Source: Actinoplanes teichomyceticus ATCC 31121
GTDB taxonomy: Bacteria > Actinomycetota > Actinomycetes > Mycobacteriales > Micromonosporaceae
Length of the DNA: 64,000 nucleotides
Reading direction: 5' to 3'
Assembly (NCBI RefSeq): GCF_003711105.1
Contig: NZ_CP023865.1
Location: 718,001-782,000, forward strand
Position 1 is the stretch's first letter; each line of letters begins with the position of its first letter. Of the stretch, positions 27,854-28,379 are shown in pieces. Position numbers and translations under genes: made by a program. The notes below the pieces were generated by a model. The model did no database searches, was not told where the DNA came from, and was given only the letters and a program-made list of their open reading frames with translations.

Positions 27854-28177
27854 TCACAGCGGGCCGCGGCCGGAGCGCAGCAGGAGCAGGGCGACCTGGG
27901 TGCCGTCGGGGCCGAGGGCGGCGCGGAAGCGGTCCACGATCTCCCGTTCGCGGGCCAGGACCAGACGGGTGCCGCCGGAGGCCATCCGGGTCTTGCCGAC
28001 GGTCTGGGAGAGCCGGGAGCGCTCCAGCCAGAGGTCGATGATGGCCTGATCGATCTCGTCGATCCGTTCCCGCATCGCGCGGATCTCGTCGGCGGCCAGG
28101 GGCTTGCCGGCACCCGTGGACTCGTCCATCTGCGGGGCGGAACCGTTGGCGGACTGGTTGATCACGTCGGCGGTCAT
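27854..28177 (-). CDS. Chorismate mutase (AroQ type)
   Basis: Converts chorismate to prephenate, the branch point to Phe and Tyr. About 107 aa, all-helical AroQ fold: IRAMRERIDEIDQAIIDLWLERSRLSQ, GKTRMASGGTR and REREIVDRFRAALG carry the conserved Arg, Lys, Arg and Glu residues. ATG at 28177 is chosen because GAGGAG lies 5 nt upstream; an in-frame ATG at 28198 has none. Its 5' leader encodes an aromatic-rich peptide and a large hairpin, so expression is probably attenuated by Phe/Tyr supply. Confidence 0.9.
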   Translation of the reverse strand: MTADVINQSANGSAPQMDESTGAGKPLAADEIRAMRERIDEIDQAIIDLWLERSRLSQTVGKTRMASGGTRLVLAREREIVDRFRAALGPDGTQVALLLLRSGRGPL

Positions 28178-28200
28178 GCGTGCTCCTCGGGTGCTCATCG

Positions 28201-28292
28201 CCCCGGGCTTCCCACAGCCCGGGAAGCAAACAAGCCCCGGGCTGTGGGAAGCCCGGGGCTTGGAGTAGGTCTGTCGTTCAGCGGCGACCTAC
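28201..28292 (-). promoter_or_regulatory. Candidate attenuator of chorismate mutase: competing hairpins after leader peptide
   Basis: Positions 28201-28223 and 28236-28258 form a perfect 23-bp stem with a 12-nt loop. The same bases can instead fold as two smaller hairpins. In the minus-strand RNA, AGCCCCGGGCT pairs with AGCCCGGGGCT, and further 3' CCCGGGCT pairs with AGCCCGGG. Upstream, GTAGGTC (inside the leader ORF) pairs with GACCTAC beyond its stop (28292-28286 with 28271-28265). This layout of alternative structures after a short ORF is typical of ribosome-mediated attenuation. No T-tract is seen, so termination may be atypical or control may be translational. Confidence 0.7.
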
Positions 28293-28343
28293 GGCTGCCG
28301 GACTTCCGGTGCCGTAGTAGAAAAATCGCGCCTGCTGGATCAC
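28278..28343 (-). CDS. Phe/Tyr leader peptide of chorismate mutase
   Basis: A 21-codon ORF (GTG at 28343, TGA at 28280-28278) reads MIQQARFFYYGTGSP followed by AAVGRR. The four consecutive aromatic codons TTT-TTC-TAC-TAC encode Phe-Phe-Tyr-Tyr, the end products controlled by the downstream enzyme. The ORF ends shortly before the competing hairpins, and its own 3' end takes part in a stem. There is no Shine-Dalgarno sequence. A CATACT -10-like box 6 nt upstream suggests a leaderless start. It is too short for ordinary gene callers. Confidence 0.75.
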   Translation of the reverse strand: MIQQARFFYYGTGSPAAVGRR

Positions 28344-28349
28344 GAGCCG

Positions 28350-28379
28350 AGTATGCCCCGCTCCCGGACCCGGCCGCAA
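28350..28379 (-). promoter_or_regulatory. Candidate promoter for leader peptide and chorismate mutase
   Basis: On the minus strand TTGCGG (28379-28374), an 18-nt spacer and CATACT (28355-28350) precede the leader GTG by 6 nt. Confidence 0.5.

Follow-up and report, generated by a model that had tools for sequence, protein, structure and literature searches.

The chorismate mutase locus and conservation of its leader

The window analysed here, a stretch of 64,000 nucleotides from Actinoplanes teichomyceticus ATCC 31121, contains a chorismate mutase (CM) gene that is preceded by promoter-like boxes, a short open reading frame and a series of RNA pairings. The enzyme directs chorismate into the synthesis of Phe and Tyr. 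The features are as follows.

28374–28379, minus strand: −35-like box TTGCGG, read in the window sequence
28350–28355, minus strand: −10 box CATACT, 6 nt upstream of the leader start codon
28278–28343, minus strand: leader ORF of 21 codons plus TGA with a GTG start, peptide MIQQARFFYYGTGSPAAVGRR (window sequence and comparison)
28314–28325, minus strand: putative sensor codons TTT TTC TAC TAC (Phe Phe Tyr Tyr; sequence and codon-8 conservation)
28289–28317, minus strand: hairpin 1:2 (pause/preemptor), CTACGGC..GCCGTAG with inner CCGG/CCGG (covariation)
28250–28304, minus strand: candidate antiterminator, AGTCCGG/CCGGGCT plus GTAGGTC/GACCTAC (covariation and masked folding)
28231–28262, minus strand: predicted terminator hairpin, CAAGCCCCGGGCT/AGCCCGGGGCTTG, followed by TTTGCTT (28230–28224; hairpin search and covariation)
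28200–28259, minus strand: 24-bp perfect inverted repeat, arms 28200–28223 and 28236–28259 with 12 nt between them (repeat search)
28183–28188, minus strand: Shine-Dalgarno-like GAGGAG of the CM gene (window sequence)
27854–28177, minus strand: chorismate mutase gene (AroQ, CM_2), 107 aa plus stop (Pfam and solved relatives)

The identity of the downstream gene, originally predicted as a chorismate mutase, is confirmed by Pfam (CM_2) and by its nearest solved relatives, which are chorismate mutases (5hub, 2qbv) and include the intracellular Rv0948c. The best-scoring named relatives of the protein belong to Actinoplanes and sister genera of Micromonosporaceae. Position 28177 is the likely start, with another in-frame ATG at 28198, and GAGGAG is found in 19 of the 20 CM loci displayed. 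The minus-strand ORF of 21 codons, 28343–28278, is present as claimed; it begins GTG ATC CAG CAG GCG CGA TTT TTC TAC TAC and ends with TGA. The chance of at least four Phe/Tyr codons among 20 is at most about 2e-4, given the codon usage in three of the window's ORFs.

A TTGCGG/CATACT promoter had also been proposed. Both boxes are present, separated from each other by 18 nt and from the GTG by 6 nt, but a consensus promoter scan found no sigma-70-type promoter between 28150 and 28450, and the support for a promoter comes from conservation of the boxes. TTGC occurs at the −35-like position in all 25 same-genus loci with sequence covering the site (30 loci were displayed, of which 5 end short), and CATACT is exact in 121 of the 132 Micromonosporaceae CM loci with a −10-like box. 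The gap from this box to the leader start in these 132 loci is 7 nt in 88, 6 nt in 43 and 9 nt in one. The leader peptide of the window, so near to the presumed −10 box, is probably leaderless. This had been regarded as an unusual variant, a view that does not hold, since leaderless starts have been reported for several Streptomyces lividans attenuator leaders (PMC8079986) and for the ilvB leader of C. diphtheriae.

Chorismate mutase is present in 60/60 same-genus genomes, 119/121 genomes of the family sample and 59/197 genomes of the class sample. A subset of these matches, 226 CM loci including duplicates in which one genome bears two names, was used for comparison. A leader was defined by a −10-like box followed after 4–10 nt by an ATG/GTG ORF of 10–32 codons with at least two Phe/Tyr codons, and was found at 205 of the 226 loci (175 distinct regions). 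The remaining 21 consist of five loci of family f2, eight second CM copies (L161–L168), seven distant or spurious matches (L220–L226) and L125, in which an aromatic leader is present by eye behind a variant box. Seven of the eight second copies have no such leader; in L166, inspection by eye shows a diverged ORF with Phe/Tyr codons and a terminator. At the primary CM loci of Micromonosporaceae (L001–L061, L089–L160), an aromatic leader starts 6–9 nt past a −10-like box in 132 of 133 cases, a count that includes the doubtful L148. Alignment of the orthologous regions showed the short ORF, the aromatic codons and the hairpins to be conserved in Micromonosporaceae, with compensation in the hairpins, and the leader to occur in further families.

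The doubtful loci L075 and L148 were removed before codon composition was counted. Among the 160 distinct leaders from all families, 158 encode both Phe and Tyr and two encode Phe alone; a Trp codon is present in four. Phe and Tyr together make up 19.7% of the post-start leader codons vs 5.8% in the three window ORFs, and Trp accounts for 4/3246 leader codons vs 15/1505. The mean number of Phe/Tyr codons per leader is 3.99 in frame, with 1.39 and 0.79 in the other two frames. In 100 leaders picked by the pattern V....R[FY], which covers codons 6 and 7 and leaves codon 8 outside, codon 8 is Phe in 51 and Tyr in 49, and nothing else. No excess of third-position change was detected at leader codons 2–6. 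In the A1 alignment, indels before or within the aromatic codons come in threes (L010 and L015 lie outside A1), and frame-changing indels occur 3' of these codons in several lineages (the L127 group, L193). As regards translation of the leader, which is presumed here, the sequences show codon-level selection at the aromatic codons.

In two Actinoplanes species (L010/L175 and L015/L176) the T-run is one T shorter; L010 and L015 retain both Phe codons, and the altered downstream frame comes to an early stop at TAG. Phenylalanine is encoded by TTT 239 times and by TTC 69 times in 162 distinct leaders (the two doubtful ones still included), so that the TTT share is 239/308 in leaders vs 1/47 in the three window ORFs (Fisher p 6e-25). 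This bias fits a sensor built on a genome-rare codon, and a need for unpaired U/A could yield an equal bias.

A covariance model of the family leader was run against 296 class genomes and matched in 138 (E 0.01 or better); many of these matches are weak or restricted to the terminator. The best model matches gave 29 new loci: CM is the next ORF by BLAST in 26 (two of them Micromonosporaceae), L244 and L256 adjoin CM matches, and L264 lies upstream of a DAHP synthase gene. The CM leaders of family f19, probably Streptomyces, read like MLTHPTFLFTYGNRPTGCHGRAA; in their stalled-state fold, at least 5 of the 9 checked terminator-arm bases are paired upstream in 23/23 distinct sequences, vs 8/23 unmasked. 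A box-to-start scan of 20 CM loci from more distant families found a candidate in 13 (weak, and not counted) and none in seven. In family f18, a CATGCT box at six CM loci (L290–L292, L294, L297, L302) is followed by a candidate leader with FYGxRARSPLxR at its end, which may be a more remotely related form of the device.

Searched with model R1, the genome of the window itself gave one strong place (E 2.8e-33). A second match, L228 (E 1.3e-3), was rejected as a copy of the CM leader, having three Thr codons and no Phe/Tyr codons. Its ORF MCCHAITTTPGSPGVESR (L228 1501–1557; G000:C1:7216181 on), with the three Thr codons consecutive and a GC-rich hairpin, lies upstream of a class II tRNA synthetase core (PF00587) and is similar to that of thrS among the leaders listed for S. 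lividans.

Pairings in the leader RNA

The alignment for structure comprised 83 of 182 family leaders, selected at less than about 93% similarity. Mutually exclusive hairpins had been predicted behind the leader; hairpin 1:2, the antiterminator and the terminator are conserved in Micromonosporaceae and show compensatory changes. Hairpin 1:2, the 5' arm of which overlaps the Tyr codons, is paired in 96.3% of cells and has 9 double-change cells vs 2.3 in shuffles; the count of pairs changed on both sides is matched in 47 of 500 shuffles, and when the hairpin is slid by −1 or +2 the double-change cells number 16 or 13, respectively, more than the true 9. The antiterminator pairing, mutually exclusive with both hairpin 1:2 and the terminator, is paired in 91.8% of cells, with 18 double-change cells vs 5.3 in shuffles and 22 in a version slid by +3. 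Judged by these weaker measures, the signal in the two pairings is modest. The terminator has 96.0% of cells paired and 48 double-change cells vs 13.1. The covariation score of all three helices lies above all 500 shuffles, which ignore relatedness, and above every slid version. Furthermore, five pairs of hairpin 1:2 together with the terminator were recovered by RNAalifold unaided.

With a ribosome modelled as stalled at codon 9 (masked), the antiterminator is the minimum-energy fold of the window leader at transcript ends 94, 97, 100 and 104, before the 3' arm of the terminator has been made, and it is absent from the unmasked folds at the same ends. Among the 83 leaders, its pairs have a mean probability of 0.5 or higher in 69 with masking and in 18 without, and in none with the 5' arm shuffled; the stalled-state model thus leaves 14 leaders without it. 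Hairpin 1:2 has a pair probability of at least 0.5 in 62/83 leaders unmasked, and the terminator in 83/83 with the ribosome at the stop codon. In the full-length transcript, the terminator plus inner stem (−38.9 kcal/mol) is more stable than the antiterminator (−18.7 kcal/mol), and antitermination must therefore be kinetic. Antitermination in classical attenuators is kinetic. Many Actinoplanes loci have a poor U-tract; a T-run directly follows the hairpin in many other genera. No match to a T-box or other Rfam family was obtained at gathering score across the whole window.

The original prediction had counted a perfect 23-bp stem (28201–28258) among the alternative hairpins. The perfect stem exists; it is, however, 24 bp long and lies outside the conserved switch, overlapping the terminator plus a downstream copy. 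Of the 177 downstream regions that are distinct, a single one has it, and no other perfect inverted repeat among them exceeds 16 nt; sister species have other sequence there, so that it was rejected as a part of the switch. The RNA 28343–28178 folds at −99.9 kcal/mol vs a shuffled mean of −65.4 (z −7.1), a value dominated by this non-conserved long stem. At the place where the window has CCCGGGCTGTGGGAAGCCCGGGG, sister species, e.g. L002 and L005, have CCCGGGCCGGGCTGTCCGGGG; the middle of CCCGGGCTGTGGGAAGCCCGGGG is the reverse complement of the terminator loop, and CCGGGCTGT stands at that site in the sister species. This difference suggests a template switch, and the repeat is likely to be a recent local copy of the terminator loop made in that way. 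Transcription completes the terminator before the repeat, which is therefore not expected to block termination.

Leaders at DAHP synthase genes

The CM-leader model also matches leaders upstream of DAHP synthase genes in families f17, f14 and f29. The enzymes of this type combine Pfam DAHP_synth_1 with a ferredoxin-like domain in 4/4 proteins tested, and five of the six leaders inspected contain Trp (L264, L268 and L283 with FWRFYGY, L267 and L269 with W-F-x-Y-F; not L274). The genome of the window has its own DAHP leader (L310, L316), located outside the window at G000:C1 about 554776–554705 (minus strand). It reads VSRMWSFYWFTRPARAGVSAMTV, begins 6 nt after TATGCT and is probably leaderless; its Trp, Phe and Tyr codons are followed by a terminator with a T-run. 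The DAHP synthase behind it has Pfam DAHP_synth_1 only, without the ferredoxin-like domain, and a close relative of this enzyme occurs in 46 of 71 family genomes. With a minimum of two aromatic codons required in the scan, 29 of 30 family DAHP loci have an aromatic leader, with Trp in 27; the exceptions are L334, without a leader, and L344 and L345, the leaders of which lack Trp.

Other aromatic genes in the genome of the window were scanned for a leader with a −10-like box 4–9 nt before the start. None was found at three PF04715 (TrpE-like) genes, at L312 (prephenate dehydratase) or at four DAHP synthase matches (L306, L307, L309 and L311); L308 has a weak two-aromatic ORF and L310 the clear leader. 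A second DAHP synthase and a second CM about 16 kb apart (G000:C1:3544840–3561359; L311, L161, L346), with no leader by these scans, may be copies that serve secondary metabolism.

Several families share the CM leader, and the leaders at DAHP synthase accompany two different types of this enzyme. Trp is common in the leaders of DAHP synthase, at the entry step that the branches share, and almost missing from those of the Phe/Tyr branch, so that the leader codons track pathway position. We consider it likely that actinomycetes possess a two-tier aromatic attenuation, in which the DAHP leader carries Trp, Tyr and Phe codons and the CM leader, old and conserved in structure, carries Phe and Tyr codons and almost never Trp, with most of the extra CM copies devoid of the device. 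The contrast between Phe/Tyr and Phe/Tyr/Trp leaders lends itself to testing how the composition of a leader is fitted to its branch of the pathway.

Proposed attenuation and comparison with known systems

The central proposal of the original prediction, attenuation of CM through Phe/Tyr codons, withstands the comparative tests as judged from sequence, with the ORF, the codons and the hairpins all conserved. Three hallmarks of a leader-peptide attenuator are present: an ORF rich in codons for the end products, a terminator between leader and gene, and an antiterminator that excludes it according to pairing counts and folding (14 of the 83 leaders fail in the latter). The locus is very probably a ribosome-mediated transcription attenuator of the primary CM gene that senses Phe/Tyr. 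Transcription would start at or next to the GTG of the leader peptide. With ample charged tRNA-Phe and tRNA-Tyr, the ribosome would reach the stop codon and cover the middle segment, whereupon the GC-rich terminator would form and RNA polymerase would halt before the CM gene. When either charged tRNA is short, the ribosome is expected to stall on TTT TTC TAC TAC and block hairpin 1:2, and the freed segment could pair with the 5' arm of the terminator, letting transcription proceed into CM. If the leader is left untranslated, hairpin 1:2 would form and the terminator would win again.

The hairpin might be no true terminator, the stalled ribosome instead altering access to the CM ribosome-binding site or access of Rho. 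The weak U-tracts in many Actinoplanes loci and a second GC-rich segment between terminator and ribosome site in the displayed same-genus loci agree with such translational or Rho-dependent control, and anti-sequestor hairpins are mentioned in a 2005 actinobacterial survey (PMC1262725). However, GAGGAG lies outside the conserved helices and a T-run stands right behind the hairpin in many other genera, and we regard this type of control as unlikely. It is far less probable still that the leader has no part in regulation, with aromatic codons that arise incidentally from RNA structure and a hairpin that ends upstream transcription. The region around and after the aromatic codons is indeed structured and T-rich, and structure explains part of the peptide conservation; nevertheless, codon 8 lies upstream of hairpin 1:2 and alternates exclusively between Phe and Tyr, the A1 indels keep to threes (outside A1, L010 and L015 lost one T), and leaders with added Trp sit at DAHP synthase. 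The 24-bp perfect stem, for all the stability of its fold, is hardly credible as the main regulatory element, e.g. an RNase III or protein site, given its occurrence in a single downstream region and the different sequence of sister species.

Ribosome-mediated attenuation at this locus would be a specific mechanism, open to testing, by which actinomycetes that produce antibiotics control the Phe/Tyr branch, and knowledge of it should be useful for producers because aromatic precursors feed many natural products. No description of a CM leader in actinobacteria was found in the searchable literature, outside which most subscription papers lie; within that literature the CM attenuator appears to be undescribed so far, the device type itself, leader-peptide attenuation, being already known. 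The conservation of the CM leader stands against the statement, in the 2005 survey of actinobacteria, that conserved RNA structures were not seen upstream of phenylalanine and tyrosine operons (PMC1262725).

As in E. coli pheA, where the leader pheL is reported to be regulated by charged tRNA-Phe ahead of a bifunctional CM-prephenate dehydratase (PMC11802643), a leader peptide precedes a CM-containing gene; unlike in that Phe-sensing system, the leader in the window has Tyr codons beside those for Phe, its start is probably leaderless, and the CM, of AroQ type, stands alone. Among the eight leader peptides listed in the S. lividans reannotation (PMC8079986), none is for Phe/Tyr or CM, in contrast to the Phe/Tyr leader at CM described here. 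Corynebacterium glutamicum aroR-aroF likewise has an actinobacterial Phe/Tyr leader ahead of an aromatic-pathway gene, namely Phe-Tyr-Phe before a DAHP synthase gene (PMC11802643, PMC4046766), whereas the window leader precedes CM; that attenuator is reported as unresponsive to Tyr (PMC11802643). The leader of the window is similar to the actinobacterial trp, leu and ilv leaders reported for S. lividans, small ORFs that frequently lack a 5' leader, contain end-product codons and are followed in several cases by a terminator.
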